Shown: piece after piece, positions 1 through 21,420 of the stretch | Numbering within the stretch: position 1 is the first letter of the stretch | Layout of the letters: each line of letters starts with the position of its first letter | NCBI GenBank assembly: GCA_003249935.1 | Contig: QKHT01000124.1 | Coordinates: 1 to 40,878 of the forward strand | Source of the DNA: Bacteroidota bacterium | GTDB lineage: Bacteria; Bacteroidota; Bacteroidia; Bacteroidales; UBA5342 | DNA length: 40,878 bases | Direction of reading: 5' to 3' | Made by a program: the position numbers and the translations under genes | Notes under the pieces: model-generated | Told to the model about the DNA's origin: nothing | The model's input: the letters and a program-made list of their open reading frames with translations, nothing else | The model's database searches: none

Positions 1-570
<570 letters not shown>

Positions 571-662
571 CTAATTATTGTTTCAATGTACTTAATATCT
601 TGTTTGTTAGCTGTGTTTTTTGGTTGAACCGCTACTACAGCCACCGTACGTTTTTGCCGTTT

Positions 663-14148: not shown

Positions 14149-14196
14149 ATGTAACACAAATGTAATATATGTTTAATTTCATCGAAATAAGCAAGC
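14149..14196 (+). promoter_or_regulatory. Pho-box-like heptamers and -7 element upstream of the porin-pst locus
   Basis: ATGTAAC (14149-14155) and ATGTAAT (14160-14166) are separated by exactly four bases, and a weaker third unit GTTTAAT (14171-14177) keeps the same 11-base period. The geometry of seven-base units at 11-base spacing is that of PhoB sites in Proteobacteria. A near-consensus -7 element, CATCTTTG (14189-14196), follows 11 bases later. No TTG at -33 is seen, as expected for an activator-dependent promoter. The role is inferred from geometry and from the phosphate genes downstream. Confidence 0.6.
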
Positions 14197-14229
14197 TGCA
14201 TCTTTGCAGCACTTAAAACAACAAAAGAG

Positions 14230-15222
14230 ATGATTAGAACATTTTTATCATTATTTGCAGTTCTTGCATTCGCAGTGCAAGGTTATTCACAGGAGTCGTC
14301 AACAGAGTTTAAGGCTTCCGGGAAACCAACCATACGTATCTTTTCGAATTATCATACCACCAGTGCAGATGGTAACTCAATGAATCAGTTTGAGATTACA
14401 CGTGCGTATTTAGGTTATGAACACCAATTCAGTCCGAATTGGAGTGGGATTGTATTGTATGATGTCGCTAATCCGGGTGCCGGATCGCTACAAATGAGTG
14501 CATTTGTGAAACTGGCATCGTTAGAATATAAAAAAGATGATTTAAAGGTGGGATTTGGTTTAATTGAGACCAAGCATTTTAAAGCAGCAGAAGGTCAGTG
14601 GGGCTATCGTTATTTGTACAAATCGTTTCAGGACGAGTATAAGCTGAGCCCGAGTGCCGATTTGGGTGTGAGTGTCGATTACAAATTCAGTGATTTAATA
14701 TCCGGAGATTTTTCGATTAATAATGGCGAAGGATATAAGAATATTGAAGCCGACTCGGCATTTAAATATTGTTTGGGCTTAACCTTGTCGCCAATGAGTG
14801 GCTTGTGGATTAGAGGATATTACGATTATATGGATCAGAATTTCGATAATGCAAATACTGCACAACAGACAGCTTCGTTATCAGCTGGTTATAAAAGCGG
14901 TAAATTGTCGTTAGGTGCCGATTATAACTACCAATACAACCATGGTCGTAAAAGTGGTAAGGATTTGTATGGTACATCGGTTTATGGTACTTATATTGTG
15001 GGCAAGAAGTCGAATGTATTTGCACGGTACGACGATTTGGCTTCGAACAAGATGACCGGGGCAGCCGATAACTGGAATGTAAGTAAAGATGGACAACTTT
15101 ACATGATAGGTTTTGAATATTCGCCTGTTAAAGGTGTAAAAATAGCACCTAACTTTCAGTCGTTTGCAAAAAAGAGTGTAACCGCCAATTCGGTTTATGT
15201 TAATGTTGAAGTGAAATTTTAA
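14230..15222 (+). CDS. Outer-membrane porin, probably phosphate-starvation induced
   Basis: 330 residues with a signal peptide (MIRTFLSLFAVLAFAVQGYS), alternating amphipathic strands throughout (for example FEITRAYLGYEHQFSPNWSGIVLYD) and a C-terminal phenylalanine (VYVNVEVKF), all typical of an outer-membrane beta-barrel. It resembles phosphate-selective or general porins found beside pst genes. It is the first gene of the locus, behind the Pho-box-like heptamers, with pstS 29 bases downstream. The role in letting phosphate through the outer membrane is inferred from position; the anion selectivity cannot be judged from sequence alone. Confidence 0.8.
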   Translation: MIRTFLSLFAVLAFAVQGYSQESSTEFKASGKPTIRIFSNYHTTSADGNSMNQFEITRAYLGYEHQFSPNWSGIVLYDVANPGAGSLQMSAFVKLASLEYKKDDLKVGFGLIETKHFKAAEGQWGYRYLYKSFQDEYKLSPSADLGVSVDYKFSDLISGDFSINNGEGYKNIEADSAFKYCLGLTLSPMSGLWIRGYYDYMDQNFDNANTAQQTASLSAGYKSGKLSLGADYNYQYNHGRKSGKDLYGTSVYGTYIVGKKSNVFARYDDLASNKMTGAADNWNVSKDGQLYMIGFEYSPVKGVKIAPNFQSFAKKSVTANSVYVNVEVKF

Positions 15223-15251
15223 GAATAAAAACAATAGTAAAATTGAAAAAC

Positions 15252-16316
15252 ATGAAAAAGAGTTTGATAATAGTAGCCATTGCCGCGATTTTTGCTTCGT
15301 GCGGAAACGGTACAAAAAAACAGACCGGAACAGAAAAAAGCAGTGTGTCGCTTGCTGCGGCAGGAGCTACTTTTCCTCAGCCATTTTATAATCTTATATT
15401 CAAAAACTACAGCGAAAAAACGGGTGTTACGGTCGATTACGGCGGTGTAGGTTCAGGCGGTGGTATTCGCAGCCTTAAAGACCAGGTGATTGATTTTGGC
15501 GCTACGGACGCTTATCTTAGCGACGATCAGGCGAAAGAGATGCCGGCCGAAGTGGTTCATATCCCAACCTGTATTGGTGCCGTTGTTATCGCGTACAACC
15601 TGCCGGAAGTAGCAGAACTAAAACTTACCAATGCCAATCTCGAGGATATTTTCATGGGCGATATTAAAAAATGGAATGATCCGAAGATTGCGGCATCGAA
15701 CCCGGGAGTTAAACTTCCCGATCTCGCTGTAACAGTTGTGTATCGTTCAGATGGTAGTGGTACCACATTTATTTTTAGCGATTATATGACTAAAATCGGC
15801 AAACGTTGGGCCGAAAAAATTGGTACCGGAAAATCGCTTAACTGGCCGGCAGGTATTGGTGCAAAAGGTAACCCGGGTGTAGCCGGAACCATAAAACAAA
15901 CTGTTGGTGCAGTGGGCTATATTGGTTCGGAATATTCGTTTGCACAAAGCATTGCTACTGCAAAATTGCAGAATGCGGCCGGAAACTTTATCGAACCCAC
16001 CATCGAATCAATCAGTGCAGCGGCTAAAGGCGAAATCCCTGCTGATACACGCATTATGATTACCAATTCAACGGATGCGGATGCTTATCCGATAAGTGGT
16101 ATGACCTGGATCATTCTTTATAAAGAGCAAGCTTACAAAGGCCGTACAAAAGAACAAGCCGAAGCAACATTAAAACTTTTGGATTGGGTAATTGATACCG
16201 ATGCACAGTTAGTTGCCCCACAGGTTCATTATGCCCCACTACCTGCTTCAACGGTAGAGAAAGCAAAAGCTATTCTCCGCAGTGTGACTTATAATGGCGA
16301 GATAATTCTAAAATAA
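15252..16316 (+). CDS. pstS: Phosphate ABC transporter substrate-binding lipoprotein PstS
   Basis: 354 residues from the ATG at 15252. A TTG nine bases earlier would only add three residues. The lipobox IFASC places the lipid-modified Cys at residue 18. Phosphate-binding segments are visible: AGATFPQPFYN, GGVGSGGGI, DFGATDAYLS and YRSDGSGTTFIFSDYM. The protein captures phosphate in the periplasm for PstCAB. Upstream spacing to the porin is short, so they are co-transcribed. A stable hairpin follows it, which probably sets its level above that of the membrane genes. Confidence 0.96.
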   Translation: MKKSLIIVAIAAIFASCGNGTKKQTGTEKSSVSLAAAGATFPQPFYNLIFKNYSEKTGVTVDYGGVGSGGGIRSLKDQVIDFGATDAYLSDDQAKEMPAEVVHIPTCIGAVVIAYNLPEVAELKLTNANLEDIFMGDIKKWNDPKIAASNPGVKLPDLAVTVVYRSDGSGTTFIFSDYMTKIGKRWAEKIGTGKSLNWPAGIGAKGNPGVAGTIKQTVGAVGYIGSEYSFAQSIATAKLQNAAGNFIEPTIESISAAAKGEIPADTRIMITNSTDADAYPISGMTWIILYKEQAYKGRTKEQAEATLKLLDWVIDTDAQLVAPQVHYAPLPASTVEKAKAILRSVTYNGEIILK

Positions 16317-16365: not shown

Positions 16366-16396
16366 TTCTTTTATTTTTGACAAATAATTGATTTTG

Positions 16397-17248
16397 ATGA
16401 AAAGTGAAAAGCTAACGAAAGTCATACTGTTTTTGTCTTCACTTACAATATTACTGGTTGCTTCGGGCATGATTTACTCATTGGCCGGGGGATCGGTTTT
16501 GGCGTTTAAAACCTTTGGAATAAAATTTATTTACACCTCGGTATGGAATCCAACCGAGGGGAGTGAAAATTATGGCGCATTGGCGTTTATCGCAGGAACC
16601 ATTATTACATCGGTATTTGCACTATTGGTGTGTTTGCCTTTGGCCCTCTCCACCGCACTTTTTATTGGCGAATATTATCGCGATAAACCTGTTTCGCGAA
16701 TTGTGGGCACTATGGTCGACTTGCTGGCCGGTATTCCGTCCATTGTGTATGGTTTATGGGGCTTTTACGTACTTCGGCCATTGATTGTCGATTTAGGTTT
16801 GAGCCCACAAGGCTACGGTATCTTTACTTCGGGTATCGTGCTGGCCATAATGATAATACCATATGCCACCTCTATCAGTACCGAAATTATAAAAATGGTT
16901 CCGAACGATTTAAAGGAAGCCGCCTATTCGTTGGGGGCTACCCGCCTGGAAGTGATAACAAACGTACTGATACCCAATGCGCGTTCGGGTATTTTTGCGA
17001 GTTTTATTTTGGCATTTGGTCGTGCATTGGGCGAAACAATGGCTGTAACCATGCTTATTGGTAATGCCAATGTAGTGCCCGAATCGTTATTTGCTACCGG
17101 CAATACCATGGCCAGTGTTATAGCCAATCAGTTTGGAGAAGCCGATGGGCTGAAACTTAGTTCGCTAATAGCCATAGGTTTGTTGCTATTCATTATTACT
17201 GCATTGATTAATGCTGCTGGTAAGTTTATAATTAAACGCTTTTCGTAA
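16397..17248 (+). CDS. pstC: Phosphate ABC transporter permease PstC
   Basis: 283 residues from the ATG at 16397 (MKSEKLTKVILF), chosen over an upstream TTG at 16388. Six membrane helices. The permease coupling loop is seen as EIIKMVPNDLKEAAYSLGATRLEVI ahead of the helix with SGIFASFILAFGRALGETMAV. LLAGIPSIVYGLWGFYVLRP is the PstC signature. It pairs with PstA to form the inner-membrane channel and ends six bases before pstA. Confidence 0.95.
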   Translation: MKSEKLTKVILFLSSLTILLVASGMIYSLAGGSVLAFKTFGIKFIYTSVWNPTEGSENYGALAFIAGTIITSVFALLVCLPLALSTALFIGEYYRDKPVSRIVGTMVDLLAGIPSIVYGLWGFYVLRPLIVDLGLSPQGYGIFTSGIVLAIMIIPYATSISTEIIKMVPNDLKEAAYSLGATRLEVITNVLIPNARSGIFASFILAFGRALGETMAVTMLIGNANVVPESLFATGNTMASVIANQFGEADGLKLSSLIAIGLLLFIITALINAAGKFIIKRFS

Positions 17249-17254
17249 TTTAAG

Positions 17255-18130
17255 ATGACTGATATAATTAAAACCGGCAATATCCGTGCTGCAAAGAACA
17301 AAGCCTTTGCATGGATTGTAGCTATATTGTCGTTTATAACCATTTTTCCTATTGTACTTATTATTTCAAAGCTTATTATTAACGGGTACAAGCAGATAAA
17401 CCTTGCATTTTTTACGCAAGTTGGTCCCGATACCATGGAAGCCATGACTGCTGTTTCGGGCGGTCATGTAATTCCCGGTGGTATACTCAATGGCATTGCG
17501 GGTACGCTCTTAATGGTTTTACTTGCTTCTGTAATGGCAATTCCTTTGGGTGTTATAATCGGTGTATACCTTTACGAAAATACGACGAAGCGGTATGCCG
17601 CTGTGGTGCGTGATGTGTCGGACGTAATGCAGGGGGTTCCATCTATAGTTTTAGGATTAATTTCATATCTTTGGGTGGTTAAGCATGTTACGCATGGTTA
17701 TTCGGCTTTAGCGGGTGCATCGGCTCTGGGCATCATGATGTTGCCATTAATAATACGCTCAACAGAAGAGACGCTTAAAATGATTCCGGTATCGATAAAA
17801 GAAGCTGGATTTGCACTGGGGGTTCCGTACCATAAAATCATATTGCGGGTGCTAATTCCCACCGGATTCAGTGGCTTATCGACAGGAATATTGCTGGCAA
17901 TTTCGCGGGTAATAGGCGAAACGGCACCATTAATGCTTACGGCATTGGGGAGCAGGATGGTGAATTTAAATATAGAGCAACCAACGAGTGCCGTACCATT
18001 GCTGATTTGGGAATTTTATAACGACCCGAATATGGTGGATTTAATATGGAGTTCGTCGTTATTTTTGATGGGTTTTGTACTCACATTAAACATTATTTCA
18101 AAACGTATTGCTGCAAAAAGCAAAAAGTAA
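17255..18130 (+). CDS. pstA: Phosphate ABC transporter permease PstA
   Basis: 291 residues, six membrane helices. Family blocks are GGILNGIAGTLLMVLLASVMAIPLG, VMQGVPSIVLGL, and the coupling loop ETLKMIPVSIKEAGFALGVPYHKII followed by SRVIGETAPLMLTALGS. It follows pstC closely, and its stop at 18130 is one base before the pstB ATG at 18132. The order pstS-C-A-B-phoU is the standard one. Confidence 0.95.
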   Translation: MTDIIKTGNIRAAKNKAFAWIVAILSFITIFPIVLIISKLIINGYKQINLAFFTQVGPDTMEAMTAVSGGHVIPGGILNGIAGTLLMVLLASVMAIPLGVIIGVYLYENTTKRYAAVVRDVSDVMQGVPSIVLGLISYLWVVKHVTHGYSALAGASALGIMMLPLIIRSTEETLKMIPVSIKEAGFALGVPYHKIILRVLIPTGFSGLSTGILLAISRVIGETAPLMLTALGSRMVNLNIEQPTSAVPLLIWEFYNDPNMVDLIWSSSLFLMGFVLTLNIISKRIAAKSKK

Positions 18131-18131
18131 T

Positions 18132-18914
18132 ATGGATAAACCAATAGTAGACATTAAAGACCCGGTTTTACGGATAGAAAATCTTCATGTTTCGTACGAC
18201 GGGATTAAAAATTCGGTGACAGATGTTTCGGCATCGGTAAAAAAGCATGCCATTACAGCCATTATGGGGCCTTCGGGCTGTGGTAAAAGTACACTTTTAC
18301 GGGCAATTAATCGGATGCACGATTTGTATCCGCAAATAAAAACCACCGGTAAAATATTTCTTAACGGCGACGATATCAGTTCGATTTCGAACATTGTATT
18401 GCGGCGAAAAATTGGTATGGTATTTCAGCGGCCTAACCCATTTCCAACGATGAGCATTTACGACAACGTAATTGCAGGATATAAACTCAACGGGTTCAGC
18501 CTAAAAAAACATGAACGCGACGAAATAGTAGAAAAATCGCTAACGGATGTTTCGTTGTGGAACGAAGTGAAAGATGCATTGAACAAAAAAGGCACTTTTT
18601 TGTCGGGTGGACAGCAACAGCGGTTGTGTATTGCCCGAGCACTGGCTTTTCAGCCCGATGTTATTTTATTGGATGAACCAACTTCGGCACTCGACCCTAT
18701 TGCAACGGCAAAAATAGAGGATCTTCTACTGGAACTGAAAGATAAATATTCGATTGTTTTGGTAACGCATAATATGGCTCAGGCTGCACGTATTTCGAAC
18801 TTTTCGATGTTTATGTATTTGGGCGAATTGGTGGAGTATGGCCGTACGAAAGATATGTTTACCAAACCGGTAGATAAACGTACCGAAGAGTATTTGACAG
18901 GGAAATTTGGTTGA
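18132..18914 (+). CDS. pstB: Phosphate ABC transporter ATP-binding protein PstB
   Basis: 260 residues from the ATG at 18132; an earlier in-frame TTG inside pstA is unlikely to be used. Walker A is at residues 46-54 (GPSGCGKST), the ABC signature at 157-165 (LSGGQQQRL) and Walker B at about 177-183 (VILLDEPTSALDP). LLRAINRMHDLYP is the usual PstB-specific stretch. It powers phosphate import through PstCA. A clean, full-length copy. Confidence 0.97.
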   Translation: MDKPIVDIKDPVLRIENLHVSYDGIKNSVTDVSASVKKHAITAIMGPSGCGKSTLLRAINRMHDLYPQIKTTGKIFLNGDDISSISNIVLRRKIGMVFQRPNPFPTMSIYDNVIAGYKLNGFSLKKHERDEIVEKSLTDVSLWNEVKDALNKKGTFLSGGQQQRLCIARALAFQPDVILLDEPTSALDPIATAKIEDLLLELKDKYSIVLVTHNMAQAARISNFSMFMYLGELVEYGRTKDMFTKPVDKRTEEYLTGKFG

Positions 18915-18932: not shown

Positions 18933-19628
18933 ATGAGTGTAAAAAAAGACCTGGCATTCGAAAAACTGATGCGCGACTTCGAAAAATTTTCGAATCTTAC
19001 GTTGCTACAGCTCGATTTGCTCGATAAAATGATAAGCGATTATGTGGCAAAAAAGCCTGTGGATGGCTTTAAATCGCAGATTGCCGAAAACGAAACAGTA
19101 CTCAATCAGCTTGAAGTAAAAGTGAGCGAACGAATTATGCGAATTATTTCGCTCTATAATCCCATGGCTTCGGATTTACGTAAACTTTTGGCCATATACC
19201 GAATGCTGATAGACCTTGAGCGGATTGGCGATTTGGTTACTGGTGTGGTGCGCGATATGCTGCGCATAAAAGATGTTGAAATATTTGTAAATGCATCGGA
19301 TGTTATCGACAATATGTTGGTAATGACCAAAGAGATGCTTATAAAAGCACTGTTATCTTTTACGCAAAACGATCGCGAATCGGCAATTTGGACCATTAAG
19401 AGCGATTCGGTTGTGGATGAGCTGAACCATAAACTCCTGCGCAAATCGGTAGCCAAAACCAATTTGACCGACGAACATCAGGAAATGATTATGAGTTTTT
19501 TAAAGCTTAAAAGCATTGTGTCTGATATTGAACGTATTGGCGACCATTCGACCAATATTGCAGAGGCCTCGATATACGCACTCGATGGTACCGACCTGCG
19601 ACACGTTGATTTGGATCTGGACGATTAA
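18933..19628 (+). CDS. phoU: Phosphate signalling protein PhoU
   Basis: 231 residues, all helical, with the two symmetrical PhoU metal-binding motifs at residues 96-100 and 200-204 (ERIGD in both). In other bacteria PhoU links the Pst transporter to the sensor kinase PhoR and keeps the regulon off when phosphate is plentiful. It lies 18 bases after pstB and 22 before the kinase, matching that role. Confidence 0.96.
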   Translation: MSVKKDLAFEKLMRDFEKFSNLTLLQLDLLDKMISDYVAKKPVDGFKSQIAENETVLNQLEVKVSERIMRIISLYNPMASDLRKLLAIYRMLIDLERIGDLVTGVVRDMLRIKDVEIFVNASDVIDNMLVMTKEMLIKALLSFTQNDRESAIWTIKSDSVVDELNHKLLRKSVAKTNLTDEHQEMIMSFLKLKSIVSDIERIGDHSTNIAEASIYALDGTDLRHVDLDLDD

Positions 19629-19650
19629 TAACGCAAAACTTAAAACAACA

Positions 19651-21420
19651 ATGGCATCAATTCTCGAACTACGAAGTTTTCGCAATAAACTCTTCTATTC
19701 TCTCCTTTCTGTATTTTCGATATTTATTCTTATCGTGCTGGCCTTTCAGTATCAGCGCGAAAAGGATTTTAAAAAGAAGGAACTCGAAACTTCGCTCAAC
19801 GACATCACCGAAATGACGCATCTGTTTATCGAACACAACCATACGCTCGATAGCAGTCGTATATTTTATCTCGATTCGCTACAGAATATTATTCCACGAA
19901 AAAATGTTCGTATAACCGTAATTATGGCCAACGGTGTGGTGCGATACGATAATCATGTTACCGAAGTCAATAAAATGGAGAATCACCGGCTTCGACCCGA
20001 AGTGCAGTTATCGGTAAGCGAACCTTTTGGCGAAAATGTGCGAAAATCGGCTACTACGGGCGAAGAGTATTACTATTTTGCAAAGTTTTATGGCACTTAC
20101 TTTGTTCGAACCGCGCTTGTTTACGATGTGGAAGTAACCACTTTTTTGCGCGCCGAGCGGGTATTTATTCTCTTTAGCCTCTTTTTGTTTGGCATCGTTT
20201 GGCTGCTGTTGGCATATGTAACCAATCGTTTGGGGGGAACCATTACTCAACTCAAGGATTTTGCTATAAGTGTAAATAATGGCGATGAGATGGCCGTAGA
20301 ATATCAATTTCCCGATGATGAACTTGGTGAAATATCCAATCGGGTAGTGGCCATTTACAAAGAAATGAAATTGGCCAAGGATAACCTTTCGAAAGAAAAG
20401 GAAAAACTGTTTAACCATTTGTTTGCCCTTAACGAAGGGGTGGCGTTTTTTGCTAAAGACAAAAGTCGCCTGCTAAACAACAACCATTTTATTCAGTTTT
20501 TAAATATTATTTCGGATGTGCCTACCATTTCGCCTGAACATATTTTCGATTTAGCAGATATGAAGCCGTTGGTAGAGTTTATTGATGCCAATTTAAGCGA
20601 TTTGTCAAAACCACTGGCCGCCATGCCGGCTTTCGAGATCAACATCAAAAAAAACAGCCGGTTTTTTGCTGTTAAATGCATTATTTTTCAGGATCGTAGC
20701 TTTGAAATATTGATTCTCGAAACCACGCAACTCGAAGAGCGTACTTTGCTTAAACAGCAAATGACTTCGAATATCGCTCACGAATTACGAACACCCGTGG
20801 CTTCTATTTCGGGCTATCTCGAAACGATATTGAGTAACGTGCTCGACGACAAAAAAAAGGACTACTTTATAGAAAGAGCGCATGCTCAGGCCCGACGGTT
20901 GGCCGAATTAATCGACGATATTTCGCTTATTACTAAAATAGAAGAGGCAAAAACCTACTTTGTAAAACAACCGGTAAATGTATATAAACTGGTGCACGAA
21001 GTGGTATCGAACCTTAGCAACCGTGTAGAAGAACGAAAATTGGAAGTCAATGTAGCTATTGATGAAACATCGGTTGTAAATGGTAATAAAACCTTGTTAT
21101 TCTCGGTATTTTACAACCTGCTCGACAATTCCATTAAGTATGCCAACCAAGGTTCAATTGTAAACATACAGCAGTATCATAGCGACGAAAATTGTGTGTA
21201 TTTTACTTTTTCGAACAATGGCGAAAGCATTCCCGAAGAGCATCTCTCGCGGATATTCGAACGGTTTTATCGTGTGGATACCGGTCGGTCGCGCAAAAAT
21301 GGCGGCACAGGCCTTGGCCTGGCGATTGTAAAAAATGCCATTCAACTGCACAACGGCGAAATTTCGGCCCGCAATCTCAAAGATGGTGGCGTGGAGTTTC
21401 TGTTTAGCATTCAAAAATAG
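19651..21420 (+). CDS. PhoR-like membrane sensor histidine kinase
   Basis: 589 residues from the ATG at 19651; a longer frame into phoU is not credible. The domain order is a first membrane helix (about 13-32), a ~130-residue periplasmic domain, a second helix (VFILFSLFLFGIVWLLLAYV), a linker resembling HAMP, a PAS-like region, HisKA with His377 (NIAHELRTPVA), and HATPase_c with NLLDNSIKYAN and GTGLGLAIV. Its place behind phoU and its layout fit PhoR. Unlike short PhoR proteins it has a sizeable extracytoplasmic domain. No response regulator gene is adjacent, so a phoB must lie elsewhere. Confidence 0.9.
   Translation: MASILELRSFRNKLFYSLLSVFSIFILIVLAFQYQREKDFKKKELETSLNDITEMTHLFIEHNHTLDSSRIFYLDSLQNIIPRKNVRITVIMANGVVRYDNHVTEVNKMENHRLRPEVQLSVSEPFGENVRKSATTGEEYYYFAKFYGTYFVRTALVYDVEVTTFLRAERVFILFSLFLFGIVWLLLAYVTNRLGGTITQLKDFAISVNNGDEMAVEYQFPDDELGEISNRVVAIYKEMKLAKDNLSKEKEKLFNHLFALNEGVAFFAKDKSRLLNNNHFIQFLNIISDVPTISPEHIFDLADMKPLVEFIDANLSDLSKPLAAMPAFEINIKKNSRFFAVKCIIFQDRSFEILILETTQLEERTLLKQQMTSNIAHELRTPVASISGYLETILSNVLDDKKKDYFIERAHAQARRLAELIDDISLITKIEEAKTYFVKQPVNVYKLVHEVVSNLSNRVEERKLEVNVAIDETSVVNGNKTLLFSVFYNLLDNSIKYANQGSIVNIQQYHSDENCVYFTFSNNGESIPEEHLSRIFERFYRVDTGRSRKNGGTGLGLAIVKNAIQLHNGEISARNLKDGGVEFLFSIQK

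Follow-up and report, generated by a model that had tools for sequence, protein, structure and literature searches.

The contig examined here comes from a Bacteroidota bacterium of the order Bacteroidales (GenBank assembly GCA_003249935.1, contig QKHT01000124.1) and was analysed over its whole stretch of 40,878 nucleotides, which we call the window; coordinates without a locus label refer to it. Short direct repeats lie there in front of a porin-pst operon, and the question that they raise is whether they form a Pho box of a kind proper to the Bacteroidota.

The tandem element and the operon behind it

The initial annotation had described three heptamers with an 11-base period, and these were confirmed (ATGTAAC at 14149-14155, ATGTAAT at 14160-14166 and GTTTAAT at 14171-14177). 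Read as units of six bases on the plus strand they are TGTAAC (14150-14155), which is in register with the consensus of 35 sites, and TGTAAT (14161-14166) and TTTAAT (14172-14177), which are placed both by the matrix and by the register of that consensus. A fourth unit that had been overlooked, CGAAAT (14183-14188, plus strand), keeps the 11-bp register, and the element is therefore a tandem direct repeat with units beginning at 14150, 14161, 14172 and 14183; TGAAAT or CGAAAT is the fourth unit in several phoB promoters too. The last unit is followed on the same strand by a gap of 10 nt (14189-14198) and by CATCTTTG (14199-14206) with CA behind it, as in the consensus TTTGCA. We name CATCTTTG a -7 element on the basis of TAnnTTTG, which we take to be the Bacteroidota -7 consensus. 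The third heptamer had been placed 11 bases before the -7 element; it in fact lies 21 nt from CATCTTTG, and the figure fits the fourth unit with its 10 nt. The absence of a -33 box was upheld because TTTG was looked for at 14176-14179 and ATTT is found there. Thus, with a 10-nt gap and no TTTG, the array has a fixed place upstream of the promoter element, where it replaces a -35/-33 box. The whole element is matched by the model R1 at 14151-14210 on the plus strand with 31.1 bits and E = 1e-6.

Profile matches showed that the order porin, pstS, pstC, pstA, pstB, phoU had been read correctly and that a Bacteroidota-type PhoR kinase comes next, all on the plus strand. The first gene (14230-15222) encodes a porin-like outer-membrane protein with a weak Pfam Porin_4 match (E 0.024), and its orthologue at L045 matches Porin_O_P at 2.6e-6. 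It is followed by pstS (15243-16316; TIGR00975, 349.5 bits, cut-off 205), pstC (16388-17248; TIGR02138, 283.9 bits, cut-off 196.45), pstA (17255-18130; TIGR00974, 232.2 bits, cut-off 193.45), pstB (18108-18914; TIGR00972, 352.2 bits, cut-off 343.2) and phoU (18933-19628), which is above the cut-off of PF01895 and, with 120.2 bits, under the cut-off of 130.25 of TIGR02135. The phoR histidine kinase reading frame (19516-21420) matches NCBIfam NF053855 HisKinPhoRBctds over residues 54-634 with 628.5 bits (cut-off 500), and the gene probably begins behind phoU, near 19640-19675. Porin paralogues served for comparison, and many of them have no site, but L010, L016 and L020 carry one with no good pstS match shown behind it, and the paralogues are therefore not a clean negative set.

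A common motif in the pst promoters of the order

PstS was searched for in 295 genomes of the order, and strong matches (E below 1e-60) were obtained at 54 places. The promoter set was made from 50 of these places in 51 rows, L095 repeating the place of L059, and consisted of 30 search loci, 20 further stretches and L024; second pst copies in genomes G248, G140 and G284 were excluded. Expectation maximization on the 51 promoters, with 60 random starts and no seeding with the expected motif, returned one block of 57 bases made up of four 11-bp units, 10 nt and TAnTTTTGCA. Its log-likelihood was 871, as compared with 124, 126 and 150 in three shuffled sets with 20 starts each. When each row was left out in turn, in runs that began from the all-row matrix and were then refined without the tested row, 45 of the 51 rows scored above 9.8 bits. 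The site is missing in six rows, or five of the 50 places (L051, L059, L084, L089, L093 and L095), and L043, which scores 9.9, fits only with an 11-nt gap. Reversed promoters reached at most 9.7 bits. Three of the 51 reverse complements reached 9.8 bits, namely L059 and L095, which are one place (10.6), and L058 (34.3), where there is possibly a real divergent site. The initial annotation had let its reading stand or fall with the motif being common to orthologous pst promoters, and in the order it is common to the 45 rows given above.

The period was counted with a loose unit word, YKWAAY, and compared with shuffles. In 50 pst promoters there were 65, 36 and 19 unit pairs at 11, 22 and 33 nt, against 1.9, 2.6 and 2.0 in shuffled sequence, and in 80 Bacteroidaceae phoB promoters there were 73, 63, 62 and 21 pairs at 11, 22, 33 and 44 nt, against 3.0, 1.7, 2.4 and 1.6. 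The distance from a unit to a TAnnTTTG-like element was 10 nt in 32 and 21 nt in 39 of the 50 pst promoters, and 10 nt in 58 of the 80 phoB promoters, where shuffles lead one to expect counts of 0.7-0.8. The conserved columns of the block are the letters of the unit word and TTTG, and the spacer columns hold little information.

The phoB gene and other OmpR-type regulators

The same genome has a PhoB orthologue, encoded on contig C46 at L003:1804-2493 (NF053854, 355.8 bits, cut-off 270). Its promoter has six units, at L003 positions 1501, 1512, 1523, 1534, 1545 and 1556, the one at 1545 being poor, and the last unit is 10 nt from the -7 element TAATATTG / TAATATTGCA. This promoter scores only modestly: the matrix gives it 11.8 bits and the model scan 13.3, and since 13.3 bits sits among 39 matches with E up to 10, the assignment rests on the layout and not on the score. 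The phoB leader, about 230 nt long (L003:1575-1803), has a better predicted fold than shuffled sequence (z -2.24). A terminator-like hairpin and its T run lie about 40 nt ahead of the start codon, where they may serve attenuation or belong to a small RNA.

In the order, 10 of 13 stand-alone phoB genes (L097-L109, 64-72% identical to the own PhoB) reach 10 bits, L102 scores 9.1 bits, and L103 and L104 fail. Among 16 further PhoB-like regulators (L110-L125, 52-62% identical to the own PhoB) one reaches 10 bits; a pstS is found within about 4 kb of at least seven of them, and we read these as being served by the pst promoter. The PhoB-like regulators of the order thus form two groups, one with 64-72% identity and mostly with a Pho box of its own, and one with 52-62% identity and mostly without. 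In the Bacteroidaceae, the matrix trained on pst promoters found at least 10 bits upstream of phoB in 76 of 80 loci (median 32), these being the best 80 of 509 loci and close relatives that are not independent, and at least 10 bits downstream of phoB in none of the 80. The four without a site among these best 80 of 509 are L172, L193, L198 and L222.

It could be argued that another OmpR-family regulator binds the array in front of the same genes and that PhoB is not the direct binder. Tandem repeats are commonly used by OmpR-family regulators, six regulators are above the PF00486 cut-off in this genome, and we know of no demonstration of direct binding at unit resolution. However, of the six genes phoB alone has an upstream site, the other five scoring -6.0 or lower, and the site marks phoB in nearly all of the best 80 Bacteroidaceae loci just described. 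In Bacteroides fragilis, moreover, pst depends on PhoB, which binds the pst promoter, as described in PMC3547664. We therefore consider another regulator of the family unlikely, and PhoB remains the preferred binder.

Agreement with the phoB deletion of Bacteroides fragilis

In B. fragilis YCH46, the work with a phoB deletion described in PMC3547664 found ppk (BF2645), ppx (BF2646), pstSCAB, the permease BF3715 and phosphatases to be PhoB-dependent and the second ppk (BF3714) to be PhoB-independent, with low phosphate raising expression. PhoB bound the pstC promoter in a gel shift with a 512-bp probe (Wakimoto 2013, PMC3547664); the words motif, consensus and binding site do not occur in the main text of that paper. 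We scanned B. fragilis S82 with the model and equated its genes with the YCH46 tags by annotation and gene order. With 150 of 3313 candidates scored there were 40 matches with E up to 10, of which the best 17 were inspected. The ten best lie, in order, before ppk, phoB, a small protein (L313), a DUF6769 protein, phosphoglycerate mutase, a DUF5690 protein, pstC, a PHO4 phosphate permease, a methyltransferase divergent from the DUF5690 gene, and a glycosyltransferase. Lower-ranked matches lie before a phosphoesterase (L248) and pstS (L249). The ppk with a site (32.1 bits) has ppx directly behind it; in the stretch examined for the second ppk, beside the permease, there is no site (-15.7), and the permease behind this ppk has a site of its own (24.5 bits). 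The sites thus agree with the PhoB-dependence of BF2645/BF2646 and BF3715 and with the independence of BF3714, and several phosphate-gene promoters (pst, phoB, ppk-ppx and the permease) have this type of site in common. The PhoB-dependent alkaline and acid phosphatases were not recognised among the matches identified in the best 17. The pstC promoter of S82 has six units in register, then 10 nt, then TTTCTTTGCA, which is the layout of the window promoter; PhoB binding and PhoB dependence have been demonstrated for pst of B. fragilis (PMC3547664).

Two other places in S82 were observed. At L313 (1096-6397) a strong site (32.1 bits) precedes genes for a 178-aa protein, a TonB receptor and a SusD-like lipoprotein, a set that resembles the systems for phosphate utilisation described for Flavobacterium in PMC8115612. 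On contig C4, the gap between the DUF5690 gene and the methyltransferase gene divergent from it (249167-249289; L241/L244) has Pho-box-like sites on each strand.

These results also bear on the idea that no specific regulator is involved and that the repeats bend DNA as A/T tracts phased with the helix or serve RNA polymerase as an UP-like element. The spacers are indeed AT-rich and in phase with the helix. But the conservation lies in the unit word and TTTG and not in the spacers, and phosphate genes and phoB are marked by the element, which the second B. fragilis ppk and the other regulator genes lack, so that we regard this idea as very improbable by comparison with a Pho box.

Specificity in the window and in the genome

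A matrix trained without the window promoter gave the window site 32.0 bits and the runner-up 10.7 among 81,644 positions on both strands, and a matrix retrained from random starts, again without this promoter, gave 32.5 and 11.5 bits. The second best match in the window (538-594, minus strand, 10.7 bits) precedes a minus-strand reading frame and is probably an ordinary -7 element only. For the genome scan we used a sequence-only model of 35 sites from which the own site was excluded. With 150 of 4437 first-look candidates scored, the window site is the top match in the 4.27-Mb genome (31.1 bits, E = 1e-6), the next match has 19.1 bits, and 39 matches have E up to 10. The initial annotation had put forward a search with TGTAAYN5TGTAAY, and this does find the pst and phoB promoters among its six genome matches, but the reversed pattern gives five; two heptamers alone are thus not specific. 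Another of the six, in C47, precedes a sigma-factor-like gene. That the array arose by chance, TGTAAY-like words being frequent in AT-rich DNA and an 11-base spacing turning up now and then, agrees with a two-unit pattern no commoner than its reversed control, but given the scores of the full element in window and genome, and its conservation in orthologous promoters and across families, which already refutes it, the probability is negligible.

Matches 2 to 12 of the genome scan could not be linked to phosphate genes, with the exception of a phosphoesterase. Among 20 of the 39 matches that were inspected, the layout looked good by eye at L128, L130, L131, L133 and L137, which we treat as leads only because their scores are near background. 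L128 (G000:C211:20912-20962) has three units, 10 nt and TACCTTTG, scores 18.4 bits and lies before a secreted-looking 214-aa protein that has no Pfam match; the others belong to an arginine deiminase (L130), a TonB receptor plug (L131), a phosphoesterase (L133) and a sulfatase-like protein (L137). The L133 site, at 13.9 bits and background level, lies ahead of a calcineurin-like phosphoesterase (L133:622-1530) that is followed by a PF13528 glycosyltransferase, and in B. fragilis a Pho-box-like site lies ahead of the same pair (L248:677-1480), the proteins being 38% identical. At 12 loci in the order the upstream stretch reached at least 9.4 bits in seven and the downstream control in two (19.6 and 15.9); the locus of this genome, L299, is among those scored without a site because the ORF start that was used is upstream of it. 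As a lead only, this pair possibly takes part in lipid remodelling in phosphate starvation.

Reach across the phylum

NF053854 at E up to 1e-75 found matches in five of 296 genomes across the phylum, and because this search was too strict for other orders, PstS was used as the phylum query instead. The resulting set was 28 new pst loci (L271-L298), one of which, L272, is of the same order and duplicates a locus already used, and 12 more places were left out. Within 1.5 kb upstream, 14 of the 28 loci reach 10 bits and the site is missing in the other 14; in the controls 10 bits was reached by one of 28 reversed sequences and by none of 28 reverse complements. The upstream G+C was 0.45 or higher in 10 of the 14 loci without a site and in five of the 14 with one. 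Several families have a CTTAAC-type array with an unchanged gap (for example, L281). The unit word thus shifts, and the period and the gap stay the same.

A probable Pho box of the Bacteroidota type

The proposal that this is a Bacteroidota-type Pho box is backed, beyond the order's pst promoters, by the stand-alone phoB genes (10 of 13), the Bacteroidaceae phoB genes (76 of the best 80) and the phylum-level pst promoters (14 of 28). The element is very probably such a Pho box, at which PhoB~P arranged head to tail replaces recognition of a -33 box. What the analysis shows is the layout, its conservation, its association with phosphate genes and phoB, and its agreement with the phoB-deletion results from B. 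fragilis; we infer that in this organism PhoB is the binder, with one protomer per unit, and that it activates the operon in response to phosphate. On phosphate starvation PhoR, encoded at the end of the operon, would phosphorylate PhoB, encoded on contig C46, and PhoB~P would bind the 11-bp units head to tail, with one DNA-binding domain per unit and, being bound in tandem, with a fixed rotational position relative to the -7 element. The last unit, at a fixed 10 nt from that element, would cover the place of the missing -33 box, and we therefore propose that PhoB acts as a class-II activator, which brings in RNA polymerase carrying the Bacteroidota primary sigma factor and so switches on porin-pstSCAB-phoU-phoR. 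Since the phoB promoter is of the same type, we also propose that the circuit is autoregulated.

In the Pho box of E. coli the last unit lies about 10 bp from the -10 element and replaces the -35 box. Here the gap of 10 nt matches that figure despite a different DNA word and a different promoter element. A further likeness is that the E. coli Pho box is made of tandem 11-nt units with about seven conserved and four less conserved bases (PMC4415409). In contrast, the units found here (TGTAAC/CTTAAC/TGAAAC) are not CTGTCAT, the -7 element is TAnnTTTG, and there are often four and up to six units. The consensus of the 35 sites is TGTAAC-like, the unit words TGTAAY, CTTAAC and TGAAAY are all unlike CTGTCAT, as the initial annotation had held for TGTAAY, and CGTCAC or CGTCAT units are only occasional (e.g., L050, L055 and L057). 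The cyanobacterial Pho box likewise has direct repeats of about 11 nt and an OmpR-type phosphate regulator, and its words and those of Bacillus are similar to the TTAAC-type units seen in deeper Bacteroidota. To our knowledge, the promoter context differs as well, in that neither PhoP boxes nor the cyanobacterial Pho box have a -7 TAnnTTTG at a 10-nt gap. In Bacillus and Streptomyces, too, phosphate regulators of the OmpR type bind direct repeats of about 11 nt, the PhoP boxes, and the Streptomyces consensus, GTTCACC, is unlike the Bacteroidota units (PMC4415409). The Pho box as a kind is thus known; in the open-licence PMC literature we found no definition of a Bacteroidota Pho box, neither the sequence variant nor the promoter grammar. 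It is likely that we are dealing with a Pho box common to much of the Bacteroidota and, within that literature, undescribed, with four to six units, a near-invariant 10 nt to TAnnTTTG and PhoB substituting for the -33 contact.

Among gut and environmental bacteria the Bacteroidota are a major group; most of their regulons are unmapped, and their activator-dependent promoters are poorly understood. If the proposal is true, the Bacteroidota Pho box would drive pst, phoB, polyphosphate metabolism and a phosphate permease, and also an uptake system of the TonB/SusD type and, with a possible role in lipid remodelling, a phosphoesterase-glycosyltransferase pair. The 57-base model of operator plus promoter would let phosphate regulons be predicted from sequence in many Bacteroidota, and it would make it possible to test cleanly how an activator stands in for the contact that the Bacteroidota sigma factor makes at -33.
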